From positions 1-49,440 of the forward strand of contig RRZV01000091.1 in the NCBI GenBank assembly GCA_003931895.1: a stretch of 49,440 nt of DNA, written 5' to 3'. Positions 9,314-15,516 of this stretch are shown here, in pieces. The notes under the pieces were generated by a model. That model was given only the letters and a program-made list of their open reading frames with translations. It was not told the origin of the DNA and made no database searches. Positions within the stretch are counted from its first letter, which is position 1, and each line of letters starts with the position of its first letter. The position numbers were made by a program, and so were the translations under genes. The stretch comes from Mesohalobacter salilacus (GTDB lineage: Bacteria; Bacteroidota; Bacteroidia; Flavobacteriales; Flavobacteriaceae).

Positions 9314-10122
9314 TAGAACAAATCAATATTAAATTTATTTTTAATCTTTAGAACATCCCTTTCATAGAAAACTTTCAATTTATCTACAGTTTCTTTTTTA
9401 AGAACTTCATCATAGTTACCCACGAATACTTTTTCATTAGAAACTTGAGACCAATTATGAGACTTCACATTTAAAAAATTTTCGATTTGATTTAAAGTGA
9501 TTTCAGTTCCATTAAATAAATTTTTATTATCAACAATCAAAACATTATCAAATTCTTTCAAAAAGGTTAAAATTTTTTTGTAATAAAAACCATTTAAAAG
9601 TGTTGGACACTCAATTTCATTACTATTTTCTAGCACCTTTAATTCTTCATCTATAAAAAAGTCGAAATTCTTATAACTTTCCTTACTGCGTTTTTTTACA
9701 CTACACACGTCTTTGCCTCTAGCTTTCATCCAATCAAACCACCAATCTTCTTTTCCATCTTTAAATCTATTTTTATACATCATATAGGCGCTAAAGGCTC
9801 TTTCTATAGGGTTTCTTAACATTATAATAATATAAGCGTCTTTATTATAGTTATATATCCTAGACGCTGTTTTTTCGCCAGTTGACAAATACGATGGTGA
9901 AGCATCTATGAGTTTAATTTTCTTGACATACTTCTCATAAAGACTACATTTAAATAAAGAATGGTAATAATCTAAGCCCTTATTATACAAACCATCATAA
10001 CTAAAAAAATCGATTTCTTTTTGTTTTCCAGATTTTATTTGTGGGTGCTGGGTTAAAAACTTATGTAAAGCTGTAGTGCCACATTTTTGCTCTCCAACAA
10101 TAAATATATCAACTTTTTTCAT
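9313..10122 (-). CDS. PAPS-dependent sulfotransferase
   Basis: A second sulfotransferase, 269 residues, only distantly similar to its neighbour. The phosphosulfate loop is IVGEQKCGTTALH (about residues 7-19) and the 3'-phosphate motif is MLRNPIERAFSAYMMY (about 95-110); an Asp-Ala-Ser-Pro-Ser-Tyr segment (about 73) also fits the fold. No export signal. It overlaps the wzt end by 14 bases and is followed directly by the other sulfotransferase, so the two probably modify different positions or sugars of one glycan. Confidence 0.85.
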   Translation of the reverse strand: MKKVDIFIVGEQKCGTTALHKFLTQHPQIKSGKQKEIDFFSYDGLYNKGLDYYHSLFKCSLYEKYVKKIKLIDASPSYLSTGEKTASRIYNYNKDAYIIIMLRNPIERAFSAYMMYKNRFKDGKEDWWFDWMKARGKDVCSVKKRSKESYKNFDFFIDEELKVLENSNEIECPTLLNGFYYKKILTFLKEFDNVLIVDNKNLFNGTEITLNQIENFLNVKSHNWSQVSNEKVFVGNYDEVLKKETVDKLKVFYERDVLKIKNKFNIDLF

Positions 10123-11374
10123 AATACCAATCTAAATTAGGCTTAAGTGGGCCAACGGTCTTACCCATCCAACCACCAAGTTTAATACTTTCTTGAATTA
10201 CAGAAAAACTGATAATGTCTTCAAATCTTCTGATAAGTTTTTTATTTCCTGAAATTTGTAAATCAACAAAGAAGTTCCCTTGATTAAAAAATTCTTTTGG
10301 TATTTGTAAATACAAATTTTGTCTGGCTTCTGATTGTTTTAATTCCTCCTTAAGACCTGTAACAAAAATAAAATTACCTTGTTCATCTTTAAACCTTAAT
10401 GTGACGTTCAATTTTTTTAAATTATAATTTTCATAAACAATTTTAAAAATAATGGTATCGTTTCTTAAAATAGGCTCACCAAAATCTTTTCTTTGAGCTT
10501 TTACACCAATAGATTTTATACTAAAACCTATGCCTTCAAACTCACCTTCTTCAAAATATCGCAGGAATTCTGCCCCTTTATCATTCCCCATTTTAAGATA
10601 AAAATCGACACTTTCATCCGTTCCACCCTCAAAAGCTATTTTACCATTTTCAAGCACCATGGCTCGCGAACATAAACTCTTTACAGCCGCCATATTATGA
10701 CTTACAAATAAGACGGTGCGGCCACCAGTGCCGGAGATGTCTTTCATTTTGCCGACAGCCTTTTTTTGAAATTCGGCGTCGCCTACGGCTAAGACTTCGT
10801 CTACCACCAAAATATCAGGTTCGAGATGTGCGGCTACGGCAAAAGCGAGTCTCACACGCATACCAGAAGAATAGCGTTTTACGGGTGTATCCACATACAT
10901 AGCACAACCTGAAAAATCTATAATTTCTTCCTCTTTGGCTTTAATTTCAGCTTTGGTCATACCGAGAATGGCACCGTTAAGATAAATATTTTCTCTTCCT
11001 GTGAGTTCAGGGTGAAAGCCTGTGCCTACTTCAAGTAATGAAGCTATACGGCCTTTGGTTTTGATGCTGCCAGTTGTGGGTAGTGTAACTCTTGATAAAA
11101 TTTTTAAAAGTGTAGATTTACCAGCGCCATTTTTTCCAATAATACCGAGCACTTCACCTTCCTGAACTTCAAAATTGATATCGCGTAACGCCCAGACATA
11201 ATCGGTTTCTGCTTTTTTACTGCGATCATTCTCAGCGCCAATCTTTAAATACGGATCGTCTTTGCCTCGCACTTTATGCCACCATCGGTTTAAATCGTGA
11301 CTTAATGTGCCTGTACCCACTAATCCGAGGCGGTATTGTTTTGAGATGTTTTTGGCGGTTAGTATGGTGCTCAT
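10109..11374 (-). CDS. wzt: Polysaccharide ABC exporter ATP-binding protein (Wzt-like)
   Basis: The ATPase of an ABC-2 type polysaccharide exporter, 421 residues. The N-terminal nucleotide-binding domain (about 1-250) has Walker A GKNGAGKS (about 83), the signature YSSGMRVRLAFAVA (about 167), Walker B ILVVDEVLAVGD (about 190) and the H-loop FVSHN (about 223). The extra C-terminal domain (about 260-420) fits the beta-sandwich Wzt_C carbohydrate-binding module, which in O-antigen exporters recognises the finished chain end. It pairs with the permease upstream, but a 498-base repeat-filled gap separates the two, which is unusual. Confidence 0.9.
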   Translation of the reverse strand: MSTILTAKNISKQYRLGLVGTGTLSHDLNRWWHKVRGKDDPYLKIGAENDRSKKAETDYVWALRDINFEVQEGEVLGIIGKNGAGKSTLLKILSRVTLPTTGSIKTKGRIASLLEVGTGFHPELTGRENIYLNGAILGMTKAEIKAKEEEIIDFSGCAMYVDTPVKRYSSGMRVRLAFAVAAHLEPDILVVDEVLAVGDAEFQKKAVGKMKDISGTGGRTVLFVSHNMAAVKSLCSRAMVLENGKIAFEGGTDESVDFYLKMGNDKGAEFLRYFEEGEFEGIGFSIKSIGVKAQRKDFGEPILRNDTIIFKIVYENYNLKKLNVTLRFKDEQGNFIFVTGLKEELKQSEARQNLYLQIPKEFFNQGNFFVDLQISGNKKLIRRFEDIISFSVIQESIKLGGWMGKTVGPLKPNLDWYYEKS

Positions 11375-11426
11375 GTTTTGAGTTTAGGCCTCTCCAAAGG
11401 AAAGGGAACGGGTTAATGGTTATTAG

Positions 11427-11876
11427 TTTCTAGTTTTAAGTTTCTCGTTTTTTGTTTTTGGTTTCAGGTTTCTTGTTTATTTAATTTTTACTTTAATTCT
11501 ACTTCTCACTGCTCACTGCTCACTGCTCACTGCCAACTGCTTACTGTTCACTGCCAACTGCTCACTGTTCACTGTCAACTGCTCACTGGTTTCTCGTTTC
11601 TCGTTTCAGGTTTCTTGTTTATTTAATTTTTACTTTAATTCTACTTCTCACTGCTCACTGCCAACTGATTACTGTTCACAGCCAACTGCTCACTGTTCAC
11701 AGCCAACTGCTCACTGGTTTCTCGTTTCAAGTTTCAAGTTTTTATCCTACTTACTACCAACTACCCACTACTAACTACATGCTACTCACTACTCACTACC
11801 AACTACTCACTACTCACTAACAACTATCAACTACCAACTACCCTCTACCAACTACCCACTACCAACTAACAACTAA
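11427..11876. repeat. Heptanucleotide repeat array A between wzm and wzt
   Basis: The 498-base gap between wzt and wzm is built mostly of 7-bp units in several blocks. Plus-strand order: TTTNNNG units (11427-11475), 12 TCACTGC/CAACTGC-type units (11506-11589), TTTNNNG units (11590-11617), 10 ACTG-type units (11648-11717), 3 TTTNNNG units (11718-11738), then 18 ACTAC-type units (11751-11876). The last unit contains the wzm stop codon (11873-11875). AT-rich linkers separate the blocks. No gene is supportable here. Confidence 0.9.
11461..11660. repeat. Exact 58-bp direct repeat inside array A
   Basis: Bases 11461-11518 and 11603-11660 are identical over 58 positions, offset by 142 bp. Each copy includes TTTNNNG heptads, an AT-rich linker and the first ACTG-type heptads, so a whole composite module has been duplicated, which points to recent recombination or replication slippage. 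Confidence 0.9.
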
Positions 11877-12748
11877 ACCGTATCGATAAAACTTTTTTCT
11901 GTTCTGTTAAAAATCACTAATCCAATCAAAAATACTAAAATAGAAAACCCTAAGGCATATAAAAAACTAAACATTGAAAATATTCCCGTATCTAAAGTCA
12001 TAAACCTGAAGCCTTCTATAATATGTGCTAAGGGATTGTACTTAAATACCCAGTAGTATTCTGGCATTTTCCCTTGAACCATACTCATGGGAAATGGCAC
12101 GGCAGAAAGGTACATCAAGAGTTGAACGGCAAAGGTCAACAATTGAGTCAGATCTCTATATTTAGTGGTGAAAGACGACACAACCATACCTAAACCCAGT
12201 CCAGATAAAGCCATCATCATGACGTAAACTGGAAATAAGATAAGGTTTTGGTTAGGGCTGACAGAAGCTCCCGAGCTAACGTAATATATATAAAAACCAA
12301 TAAAGATACTGAGTTGTATTCCAAATTTTACAAGATTAGAAATTGTAACGGACATAGGCATGATGACCCGAGGAAAATATACTTTGCCAAAAATGTTGGC
12401 ATTTTTAGTAAACGTTGATGATGAGCCATTAAGGCATTCTTTAAAATAGCCCCATGCAGTAATGCCAGCGAGGTTAAACAAAAAATTTGGCACTGTTCCT
12501 GTACTGACATTAGCAACATTATTGAAAATTAATGTAAAAATCACAGACGTAAACAAAGGCTGTATTAAAAACCAAAGCGGTCCTAAGATGGTTTGCTTAT
12601 ATACAGTAACGATATCTCGCTTTACAAAGAGAAACAATAAATCTTTATAGCGCCAAATTTCTTTAAAATTAAAATCTAAAAGTTTTTTTTCGGCTTTAAT
12701 TTCATATAGCCAATCAGCGTGTTCTAGGGAAGTATTGGGTTTGTTCAT
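11873..12748 (-). CDS. wzm: Polysaccharide ABC exporter permease (Wzm-like)
   Basis: A 291-residue ABC-2 type permease with about six hydrophobic membrane spans and the family's amphipathic N-terminus (DFNFKEIWRYKDLLFLFVKRDI, about 25-47, in part). The QTILGPLWFLIQPL segment (about 52-66) is the conserved re-entrant region of O-antigen and teichoic-acid exporters. With Wzt it would flip the lipid-linked glycan across the inner membrane. Both sides are flanked by heptanucleotide arrays, and its stop codon lies inside the first unit of array A. Confidence 0.9.
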   Translation of the reverse strand: MNKPNTSLEHADWLYEIKAEKKLLDFNFKEIWRYKDLLFLFVKRDIVTVYKQTILGPLWFLIQPLFTSVIFTLIFNNVANVSTGTVPNFLFNLAGITAWGYFKECLNGSSSTFTKNANIFGKVYFPRVIMPMSVTISNLVKFGIQLSIFIGFYIYYVSSGASVSPNQNLILFPVYVMMMALSGLGLGMVVSSFTTKYRDLTQLLTFAVQLLMYLSAVPFPMSMVQGKMPEYYWVFKYNPLAHIIEGFRFMTLDTGIFSMFSFLYALGFSILVFLIGLVIFNRTEKSFIDTV

Positions 12749-12805
12749 TTTAGTTTCGGGATATTTCTATTGGTCTCTTTTTGGTAAATCTGTTCCTGCA
12801 TTTTC

Positions 12806-13059
12806 TCGTTGTTCGTTACTCGTTGTTCGTTGTTCGTTTTTGGTTTCTTGTTTTCTATTCTACCAACTGCTCACTGTCAACTGTCCACTGTCAACTGTCA
12901 ACTGTCAACTACCAACTACCAACTACCAACTGCTCACTGTCAACTGTCCACTGTCAACTGTCAACTGTCCACTGTCCACTGTCAACTGCTCACTACCAAC
13001 TACCCACTACTAACTACTAACTACCAACTACCAACTACTAACTACCAACTACCAACTAC
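12806..13059. repeat. Heptanucleotide repeat array B between wzc and wzm
   Basis: Five TCGTTRY heptads (12806-12840) are followed by a short TTTNNNG-like stretch and then 28 uninterrupted heptads in perfect register (12864-13059), every one fitting YMACTRY. Units 12864-12989 are mostly of ACTGT/ACTGC type; the last ten (12990-13059) are all ACTAC type. A block of six units (42 bp) at 12864-12905 recurs exactly at 12927-12968. The array stops three bases before the wzc stop codon (13063-13065). The gap of 314 bases holds nothing else. Confidence 0.92.
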
Positions 13060-13062
13060 TCA

Positions 13063-15516
13063 TTAACTAAACCAATTTTTCACTTTCTGTTTAAAACTGT
13101 GTTTTTCCTGAGGTAAATAGCTTTTGCCATAAGCGCCATAGCCGTAGCCATAACCATAGCCGTAGTTATAACCGTAGCCGTATTTAGCTTTAGCTTTAAA
13201 GTAATTGAGCACCAAATTAACATTTTTGACTTCGCCTTTTTGTATTTTTTGATCAATTAAGCTCAACATGCCTTTTTTGGTATAGTTTTGTCGAACTACA
13301 TATAAAGTAGTATCGGCGTATTTCATTAGGTTCAGCGCATCAGAGACTAAGCCAATAGGTGGCGAATCTAACACAATGATATCGTAGTGGTTTTTGAGTT
13401 GGTTCATCAATTCATCCATTCTGTCGTCAATCAGTAGTTCTGAGGGGTTTGGTGGCACGACACCAGAGGTTAGAATATCTAAATTCTCGTGTCCAGAGGC
13501 CTGTATAACATCTTCATAAGAGGCTTGATTAGAAATATAGTTAGATACACCCATACTATGGTTGACTTCAAAATCGTGATGAATTTTGGGTTTACGTAAA
13601 TCTAAACCGACTAAAATGGTTTTTTTGCCACTTAAGGCCATGACCGATGACAAGTTCATCGCGGTAAAAGTTTTGCCTTCACCACTTACGGATGATGTAA
13701 TCAGAACGGTTTTAGAGCCTGTAATGGCTTTATTTTTAAACACAAATTGCAAACTAGTTCGAATGCCTCTAAAGCTTTCTGATATTACAGAGTTACTTTT
13801 AGCTAAAACCACTTTGTTGGTGTTGAGTTTTGACTTACCAATGACGCCAATTAATGGGAGATCACTAAGCTTTTCAATATCTTTAGGCGTGTTAATTTTA
13901 TTGTCGAGCAATACCAATATAAAAATAATCATCAAAGGAACACCAGAACCAAAAAATAAAGCCATCACATAATTGAGTTGGTTGTTTGGCCCAATTTGAT
14001 GACCTCCAACATCCTTAGCACGATCGATGATATGAATATCACTTACATTAGAAGCTTTAATGAGTTTGGCTTCGTTGAGTTTAGACAAAAATAGGTTGTA
14101 TGTTTCCTGACTCAGGTCGTAGCGGCGTTCTATTTTGAGTAAACCTTGTTGTTCTGCAGGGAGTTGAGCCACATCGCGTTCTAAGCTTTTTAAATCTTGA
14201 TTGATGTCTTCTATTTGTTTAAACATGTTCTCTTTAGACGATTTGATGTTTTCGAGAAGAATGTTTTTAGCGGCATCAATCTGTCGGTCTATATCTTTAA
14301 ATTTAGGTAAATTGGGTTTAGCGGCGTATTGGTATTTGCTTCGTTGTCGTGATAATTCTACAATCTGCCCGACACCTTCTACTATACTGCCTTCTTCTAT
14401 GCCAACAATACTCGGTGCTGGCGGATCTTCATAAGTAGAGCGGTTAATGAGGTAACTCTTAAGCGTATTGAGGTATTCAATTTGGTTATTGAGTTCTTTT
14501 TTTTGAGCATCAAAAGTGATGAGTTTATCTTTTAGCTGTTTAGTTTCTGAAGTAAGATCTAAAATGTTATTATCGCGTTTGTAGGCGTTAAGTTCATTTT
14601 CAAAAGCTTCAAGTTCTGTGGCTTTTTCGTTTAGGGTACTATCTATAAAACTAATCGTTTTAGTGGCAAAAAGGTTTTTTTGATCTAATTGGGTTTTACT
14701 GAGAATTTCAGTGGTTGAATTCAGATAATCTACCAGCTTTTGCTTATTATTTCCTGTGAGTTCTAAAGTAATTACTGAACCACCATTTTCTTCTGTAAGA
14801 ACGTCAATTTTTTTGTAAGTTTTGACTACACCATAAAAATCTAAAAACTGAATGTAAAATGCTTTTGTTTTATCACCTTTAAAATCTTCAACCAAGTTTA
14901 ATTTCCCTGTAAAAAACTGAGTTGCTACGGGTTTACCTACCTCTAAGGTATCAGAATAAAGACCAGGGTTATACTCCTGTTGTTGGACTTCTTCAGTTTT
15001 ATAGTTATAATAGGTCAAGGTTTGTGGCTCATCTTCTATAGAAAAAGAAACCACATAATGCTGATCACCTAGGAGTTGGATTTTCATTTGTTGCCCTTTC
15101 AGTTGAAAGGCATCGTCTTGAACGTCAATTTTAAAAGGAGTTTGGCCATAGGCATCTTCAAGTTGGTACTGACCTTGTTTAAGGTATTGTAAATAATATT
15201 CTAGGTAGCGCACTACCCTTTCGTTATGAGATCGGGTCTGCAGTGTCATGACTGTGGAGCTCATCTTATTAGATTGTCCACCCCAATTGAAGGTTAAACT
15301 GGTATTTGAATTTGTAAATAACGGGTTTTGGTCGTCTTTAATGGTTATGAGCGAACTCATTTTATAGACGGGCAATTTTCTAACGCTAATGTAATAGGCA
15401 ATTCCCAATCCGATACCTACTGAAATAACAAACCAATACCACTTGCTTAAGATTTTAAAAATAAATGATTTAAAATCGAAATACGAATTGGCGTTTGAAA
15501 AATCTAATTCTTGCAT
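13063..15516 (-). CDS. wzc: Polysaccharide co-polymerase / BY-type tyrosine autokinase (Wzc-like)
   Basis: An inner-membrane protein of 817 residues. It has an N-terminal Wzz-type domain with a first membrane helix near residues 25-45, a long coiled-coil periplasmic region (about 290-470), a second helix near 510-535, and a C-terminal BY-kinase. The kinase shows Walker A SGEGKT (about 611-616), a Walker A'-like ILVGLDLRKP and Walker B IIVLDSPP (about 714). Its tail (about 779-800) has ten tyrosines in a Gly-Tyr alternation, the autophosphorylation cluster. It controls chain length and export with Wza. Start codon overlaps the wza stop (TAATG). Confidence 0.92.
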   Translation of the reverse strand: MQELDFSNANSYFDFKSFIFKILSKWYWFVISVGIGLGIAYYISVRKLPVYKMSSLITIKDDQNPLFTNSNTSLTFNWGGQSNKMSSTVMTLQTRSHNERVVRYLEYYLQYLKQGQYQLEDAYGQTPFKIDVQDDAFQLKGQQMKIQLLGDQHYVVSFSIEDEPQTLTYYNYKTEEVQQQEYNPGLYSDTLEVGKPVATQFFTGKLNLVEDFKGDKTKAFYIQFLDFYGVVKTYKKIDVLTEENGGSVITLELTGNNKQKLVDYLNSTTEILSKTQLDQKNLFATKTISFIDSTLNEKATELEAFENELNAYKRDNNILDLTSETKQLKDKLITFDAQKKELNNQIEYLNTLKSYLINRSTYEDPPAPSIVGIEEGSIVEGVGQIVELSRQRSKYQYAAKPNLPKFKDIDRQIDAAKNILLENIKSSKENMFKQIEDINQDLKSLERDVAQLPAEQQGLLKIERRYDLSQETYNLFLSKLNEAKLIKASNVSDIHIIDRAKDVGGHQIGPNNQLNYVMALFFGSGVPLMIIFILVLLDNKINTPKDIEKLSDLPLIGVIGKSKLNTNKVVLAKSNSVISESFRGIRTSLQFVFKNKAITGSKTVLITSSVSGEGKTFTAMNLSSVMALSGKKTILVGLDLRKPKIHHDFEVNHSMGVSNYISNQASYEDVIQASGHENLDILTSGVVPPNPSELLIDDRMDELMNQLKNHYDIIVLDSPPIGLVSDALNLMKYADTTLYVVRQNYTKKGMLSLIDQKIQKGEVKNVNLVLNYFKAKAKYGYGYNYGYGYGYGYGAYGKSYLPQEKHSFKQKVKNWFS

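Follow-up and report, generated by a model that had tools for sequence, protein, structure and literature searches.

The STRR sequences of cyanobacteria are heptad repeats, and proteins of the S23 family (PF05635) are four-helix bundles. The single PDB match for S23, 2gsc, is described as a pentamer. In intervening sequences (IVS) of 23S rRNA genes, e.g. that of Coxiella, an S23 ORF lies between complementary, stem-forming ends; the available portion of that report calls the element selfish and has mobility among its hypotheses (PMC4990558). Avd of the diversity-generating retroelements is described as homologous to PF05635 in the accessible text of PMC10053308. On the side of the repeats, MacGregor 2015 (PMC4679880, accessible text) found TAACTGA heptamer repeats in Beggiatoaceae, Cyanobacteria and five Bacteroidetes, and stem P6b of the cyanobacterial trnL intron is heptad-built, with the units TDNGATT and NNTGAGT (PMC4476775, accessible text). 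Among the literature matches listed none linked heptad repeats to S23 genes, in a search that subscription papers were mostly outside of.

Two heptad arrays beside wzm

The window, i.e. the whole stretch of 49,440 nt that was analysed, is contig C45 of the draft genome of Mesohalobacter salilacus (2.84 Mb, 106 contigs). It carries wzc-, wzm- and wzt-like genes with a repeat array on either side of wzm (arrays B and A). The features are given in the order of transcription; block boundaries marked TRF are period-7 arrays of Tandem Repeats Finder.

13063..15516, minus strand: wzc-like chain-length/tyrosine-kinase protein (PF13807, PF13614), ahead of array B
12863..13058, minus strand: array B, G/T-rich heptads TAGTTGG, CAGTTGA, CAGTGGA and CAGTGAG, 28 in-register units from the wzc stop
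12806..12862, minus strand: array B, A/C-rich heptads, GAAACCA-like, then AACGAAC/AACGAGT, up to the wzm start region
11873..12748, minus strand: wzm-like ABC-2 permease (PF01061), between arrays B and A
11753..11875, minus strand: array A, G/T-rich block 1, TAGTTGG/TAGTGAG (TRF)
11717..11752, minus strand: array A, A/C-rich block 1, GAAACTT, GAAACGA and GAAACCA
11643..11716, minus strand: array A, G/T-rich block 2, CAGTTGG/CAGTGAG (TRF)
11589..11620, minus strand: array A, A/C-rich block 2, GAAACGA (TRF)
11501..11588, minus strand: array A, G/T-rich block 3 (TRF)
11424..11478, minus strand: array A, A/C-rich block 3, ahead of the wzt start (TRF)
11447..11716, minus strand: duplication inside array A, 142 bp, 1.9 copies (Tandem Repeats Finder)
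10109..11374, minus strand: wzt-like ABC ATPase (PF00005), after array A

Both gaps beside wzm are made of 7-bp units, as the original prediction had stated, and lie far above chance: identity at lag 7 was 0.79 in the array B region (12803-13062) and 0.67 in the array A region (11375-11875), against maxima of 0.39 and 0.35 in 2000 base-composition shuffles of each, which rules out simple chance as their source. The prediction of 28 units in register in array B was equally correct; in transcript sense 28 successive units match YAGTKRR (12863-13058), and the longest such run of array A has six. Tandem Repeats Finder placed period-7 arrays of array B at 12806-12838, 12864-12988 and 12992-13059. 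Judged by eye, array B runs TAGT, CAGT, TAGT, CAGT and then GAAAC/AACGA, and array A runs TAGT, GAAAC, CAGT, AT-rich spacer, GAAAC, CAGT, AT-rich spacer and GAAAC. The same block order had been claimed for the two arrays. This holds for the common plan, with a G/T-rich block first and an A/C-rich block last, but array A repeats its blocks, the two kinds alternating three times with the help of the 142-bp duplication. Each array does begin at a stop codon, since the wzm stop TAG (11875-11873) lies inside array A as its first TAG and the wzc stop TAA stands just ahead of array B. That the arrays are not random slippage, as had been concluded, does not follow from block order alone.

Folding of the window arrays was no better than that of shuffled sequences (z -0.23 and +0.29). 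Only the halves of array A pair with each other, at z -3.5 (base-composition shuffles); no pairing was found between the arms of array B (z -0.47) or between array B and array A. Taken together these values give no support to a strict RNA hairpin in the window. The window encodes no S23 ORF, neither array contains an S23 remnant at E 0.01, and 4227 Rfam models gave no match to 11300-13120 up to E 1. TAACTGA is not a repeated word of the window arrays, whose words are YAGTKRR, GAAACNN and AACGAAC; TAACTGA-like units are present elsewhere in the same genome, at the ends of contig C35. A 92-aa ORF on the plus strand (12735-13013) crosses array B and is probably a by-product of its repeats, because the repeat complement is poor in stops.

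S23 genes are linked to heptad arrays

For comparisons between genomes an array was counted where 35 nt showed an identity of 0.68 or more at a lag of 7 or 8. Genes were taken as the longest non-overlapping ORFs, mostly of at least 100 aa, without a trained gene finder, and gaps of <20 or >900 nt as well as low-complexity stretches were dropped. The genus contains 14 wzm orthologues including our own (at least 68% identity over most of the protein; one 45% match and three 25-27% matches were left out). Directly 3' of wzm, at the position of array A, nine of these 14 have an S23 gene (PF05635), and in a tenth, G015 (L316), it follows about 1.8 kb downstream, past a transposase-like ORF (PF01527). 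Pfam searches of ten ORFs following wzm assigned nine to PF05635, and the S23 ORFs in the relatives' cassettes score above cut-off for both PF05635 and TIGR02436. Arrays after wzm reach the threshold in nine of the 14, are weaker in G003 and G005, and are missing in G009, G023 and G026. The wzm stop codon is TAG wherever repeats follow it (11 orthologues) and TAA in the remaining three; because the S23 cassette is probably old at this site, we count this split as one event.

Upstream of wzm, at the site of array B, 11 of the 14 orthologues have arrays and none, our own included, has an S23 gene. Compared site by site with the 13 relatives, array A thus matches an S23 site in nine directly, and in G015 past the insert, while array B does so in 0 of 13. 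Array A is most likely an S23-less or decayed cassette at an S23 site. Array B is of the same make, yet has an S23 partner in no relative seen.

The wzm site holds three S23 types, each with its own set of repeat words (by eye). This would suit a reading in which the arrays are recombination joints, i.e. homologous patches for the swapping of surface-polysaccharide gene cassettes, as would the polysaccharide genes that neighbour several S23 genes. However, there are also cassettes next to efp and next to phenylacetate, acyl-CoA and thiolase genes, none of them places with evident swapping, and we regard such joints as the least probable of the explanations considered here.

Presence and absence can be followed at a single site between lpxA and efp, where some genomes have an empty site and others an intact cassette, a decayed one or an array alone. 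The gap measures 4-12 nt in 20 genomes and 24 nt in G011. In G026 an intact S23 gene lies in a gap of 595 nt; in G010 the 250 nt contain an array together with a remnant of S23 (tblastn E 1e-5); in G023 the 145 nt show a signal at period 7 and lack S23; and our own genome, G000, has 121 nt with a lone array (G017 was left out of this comparison). At another site an array of CACAAAT units stands ahead of a FabI-like gene of our genome (by eye; L056:19441-19538, G000:C99), and arrays are also present there in G011, G010 and, with other words, in G026. None of the 25 genomes matched at this junction has an S23 gene, nor does any relative at the site of our array beside a rluE-like gene. A lone array therefore does not always mark a site that is occupied by S23 in relatives; this holds at lpxA-efp and for array A, and it fails at the fabI and rluE-like sites and for array B.

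Within the genus, 26 of 27 genomes have matches to PF05635 (25 of them above cut-off), which add up to 171 when broken copies are counted and of which eight are in our own genome; 14 control genomes gave none. Period-7/8 arrays were present at 60 of 116 S23 junctions of the genus, or 56 of 108 distinct junctions after removal of repeats, compared with 0 of 198 control junctions. The latter came from 20 other 20-kb stretches, picked at round coordinates in six genomes, none with S23. When the 65 distinct S23 genes sampled from the 171 matches are counted instead of junctions, 37 are flanked by an array, 17 of them on both sides. These proportions vary with the sampling: 19 of 29 at loci chosen by S23 score only, four of seven in our own genome, and nine of nine at the wzm loci, all of them array-bearing and picked because of the window. 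In further S23-rich stretches of the genus five of 20 S23 genes reach the array threshold, and so do seven of 44 of the other junctions there. Across the class, represented by its best-scoring matches only, arrays occur at 17 of 54 S23 junctions (nine of 31 by gene). Among 296 genomes of the class, the share with AGT-type arrays, the only ones counted here, was 5/67 without S23, then 21/72, 39/69 and 37/53 with rising copy number and 26/35 with nine or more copies, uncorrected for phylogeny and genome size. Close S23 relatives also share a vocabulary at different sites: the fraction of 7-mers in common was 0.124 in 17 pairs of at least 60% identity and about 0.04 below that, and for pairs of at least 55% identity only two of 1000 permutations were as high.

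The surroundings of the S23 genes are diverse. Three loci (L400, L405 and L407; G003:C20, G013:C23 and G015:C1) have three or four S23 genes within 15-18 kb. At L400 and L405 Pfam identifies PaaB, a thioesterase and 3-hydroxyacyl-CoA dehydrogenase among the neighbours. Neighbours of polysaccharide type, namely nucleotidyl transferase, sugar transferase, cytidylyltransferase and UDP-glucose dehydrogenase (Pfam), were seen at L334, L335, L357 and L401. In some S23 subfamilies the arms have period 8 (GGTCAACT, CGAATACA; L333, L336, L344, L355 and L399), with words common to different sites. One S23 gene of our own genome (L054, G000:C35:97-472) has a heptad array on either side and, judged by eye, an Ffh-like gene next to it. 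Arrays stand at both ends of contig C35, and arrays may therefore break the assembly.

Polarity of the arrays and complementarity around S23

Five repeats of AGTKRRY were found in 14 of 60 genomes and six of AGTNNNN in 128 of 296 class genomes, our own among both. Since arrays commonly consist of other words, a backward control pattern likewise finds matches in many genomes; the AGTNNNN scan counts AGT-type arrays only, and repeat words differ from genome to genome. A scan of contigs returned at least 119 array stretches, which by their record titles belong to Bacteroidota, Cyanobacteria, Planctomycetota, Chloroflexi, Acidobacteria, Spirochaetes, Clostridia, Proteobacteria and others, with one archaeal bin among the matches.

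Position was analysed for the 119 matches listed, with 130 arrays, of which 21 inside called ORFs were left out. Among these loci an upstream stop codon is found no more than 30 nt from the 5' end of the AGT array 43 times out of 53 (median distance 3 nt), compared with six times out of 47 for a facing stop and the 3' end. The G/T excess falls from the first to the second half of the gap at 35 of the 43 junctions with arrays in the genus (34 of them beside S23), compared with 47 of 89 controls. The original prediction of modular, polar arrays tied to gene ends is borne out by these counts; because of the closeness to upstream stops and the genus-wide order with G/T first, a scatter of arrays regardless of gene ends or orientation, named there as the contrary outcome, did not occur. 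The closeness to stops may in part be selection, since the sense strand of the arrays carries stop codons itself.

The same prediction took the arrays for a designed device that could tune the exporter, and this part finds no support: arrays adjoin many unrelated operons and accompany S23 genes, and for both reasons they resemble parts of an inserted element. In its general form the idea is that the units are sites for RNA-binding proteins that adjust how the flanking genes are translated or how stable their products are at the RNA level, and S1, Csp or Csr have been proposed for TAACTGA (MacGregor, PMC4679880, accessible text). Strict polarity and nearness to stops would agree with it, and so would degenerate arrays that keep AGT every 7 nt, a feature that our search pattern required. 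Close relatives differ, however, in the presence of arrays at the same genes, and the neighbouring genes seen have no evident common feature, so that we consider binding sites of this kind very unlikely. An RRM protein reading YAG motifs was dropped as a candidate, since the accessible text of the RbpB paper (PMC11697453) gave no matching motif.

A different explanation is that replication slippage close to gene ends produces 7-bp duplications, which are harmless there, and that S23 elements merely settle in repeat-rich gaps; polymerase slippage was proposed for 7-nt units by Mrazek 2007 (as related in the accessible text of PMC4679880). Polarity would then arise because G/T-rich units (TAGTGAA, AGTTGAC) carry TAG or TGA on the sense strand and thus always supply a stop. 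Several observations speak for it. In 938 kb of class stretches from ten array-rich genomes period 7 dominates, with 34 arrays and 24 at period 14 compared with at most six at each of the other periods from 4 to 15. Related genomes show pure expansions of different units, and outside the genus most arrays are without S23 nearby, since only two of the 119 loci among the matches listed have an S23 gene within 2.7-8 kb; S23 beside every array is thereby ruled out. Harmless growth does not predict, however, the absence of arrays from all 198 ordinary junctions of the genus, the common words of close S23 relatives at different sites, or complementarity that in array-rich DNA is confined to S23 flanks (14/15 compared with 4/70, see below). 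We consider it unlikely on balance.

Complementarity was analysed for the 73 of 102 S23 genes of the genus that qualified by codirectional neighbours and flanks of at least 25 nt; nine are wzm loci, four come from later-added loci, and many occupy the same site by descent. In 40 of these 73 cassettes, but in only one of 38 ordinary genes, a flank pairs better with its own partner than with 95% or more of the partners swapped in, and pairing at z < -3 was reached by 46 of 73 compared with one of 38. The z values for pairing refer to base-composition shuffles throughout, except in the analysis with one cassette per site, where dinucleotide shuffles were used; there 16 of 29 cassettes passed the 95% mark (p 7e-6) and 13 of 29 had z < -3. 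Flanks also paired at 16 of 22 class loci outside the genus and at 13 of 25 genus loci not chosen for arrays. Stem-forming complementary ends round the S23 ORF are thus a trend, not a property of every cassette. The G/T excess is greater before than after the S23 gene in 42 of 48 genus cassettes and 16 of 22 class cassettes.

Arrays without regard to S23 behaved differently from one sample to the other. At the named AGT loci, among the 119 matches listed, 32 of 119 array gaps pair well compared with one of 46 other gaps. In unbiased class stretches gaps with arrays pair no better than others (5/29 compared with 5/77), and the signal at genus junctions is weak (p 0.055), so that a hairpin in every array gap was rejected. 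In cyanobacteria S23 was found in 18 of 20 genomes, which had been picked for AGT arrays, with 75 matches in total; 16 of the 75 were sampled, high scores first and at most two per genome, and 15 had both flanks. A threshold array stands on a flank in 13 of the 15, and pairing reaches z <= -2.8, a cut set after the values were seen, in 14 of the 15 (best -188 kcal/mol). Ordinary genes at array loci of the same genomes reach -2.8 in four of 70 although 29 of the 70 have arrays on a flank, and this ties complementarity to S23 and not to arrays as such. The earlier pointer to the cyanobacterial STRR proved useful, since the S23 genes of cyanobacteria have arms of the same kind.

Because of the linkage to S23 and the complementary S23 flanks we read heptad arrays as the stem of a cassette, and with a probability of about two in three they are arms of intervening-sequence-like cassettes between genes of protein operons. 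Such a cassette would consist of the stop of the first gene, a G/T-rich heptad arm, the S23 gene, a complementary A/C-rich arm and the start of the second gene. By analogy with known IVS, the arms would pair in the mRNA, and RNase III would cut the stem and free the S23 message. The cassette may be mobile, its heptads might lengthen by slippage within the paired arms, and the S23 protein could bind these arms. Arrays without S23 would then mean either that arrays outlive the S23 genes and decay, or that heptad growth is a wider process used by S23 cassettes. Much more tentatively, and with doubt prevailing, the heptad repeats of Cyanobacteria and Bacteroidota might largely be arms or arm relics of one mobile, S23-built family of mRNA intervening sequences, whose arms co-evolve with an arm-binding S23 protein and which spreads between operon genes and leaves both intact. 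Were this true, the rRNA intervening sequences would be a special case of a wider family in protein operons. Two old puzzles, the function of the S23 protein and the 7-bp repeats that fill gaps between genes in some genomes, become one question.

Comparison with described elements

The closest parallel is the 23S rRNA IVS, in which, as far as the accessible descriptions go, a PF05635/TIGR02436 ORF lies in the loop of a stem of complementary ends, as in the cassettes of the relatives. Unlike the IVS, the cassettes lie between genes of protein operons, their arms are tandem repeats of 7 or 8 bp per unit, the 5' arm being rich in G/T, and the window copies are without S23. We call them IVS-like and not IVS because at the loci examined their neighbours are protein ORFs and not a 23S rRNA gene. 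The resemblance of S23 to Avd lies in the described homology of Avd to PF05635 (PMC10053308). The TAACTGA repeats are likewise intergenic, orientated 7-nt units, mixed with other heptamers in Bacteroidetes and not shared by close relatives at the corresponding genes, but that study followed one word, and its accessible text mentions neither S23 genes nor paired arms (PMC4679880). Stem P6b is also a stem of degenerate 7-nt repeats, and the window unit AGTGAGT fits its NNTGAGT; it differs in lying within a self-splicing intron, for which the accessible text describes no S23 gene (PMC4476775).
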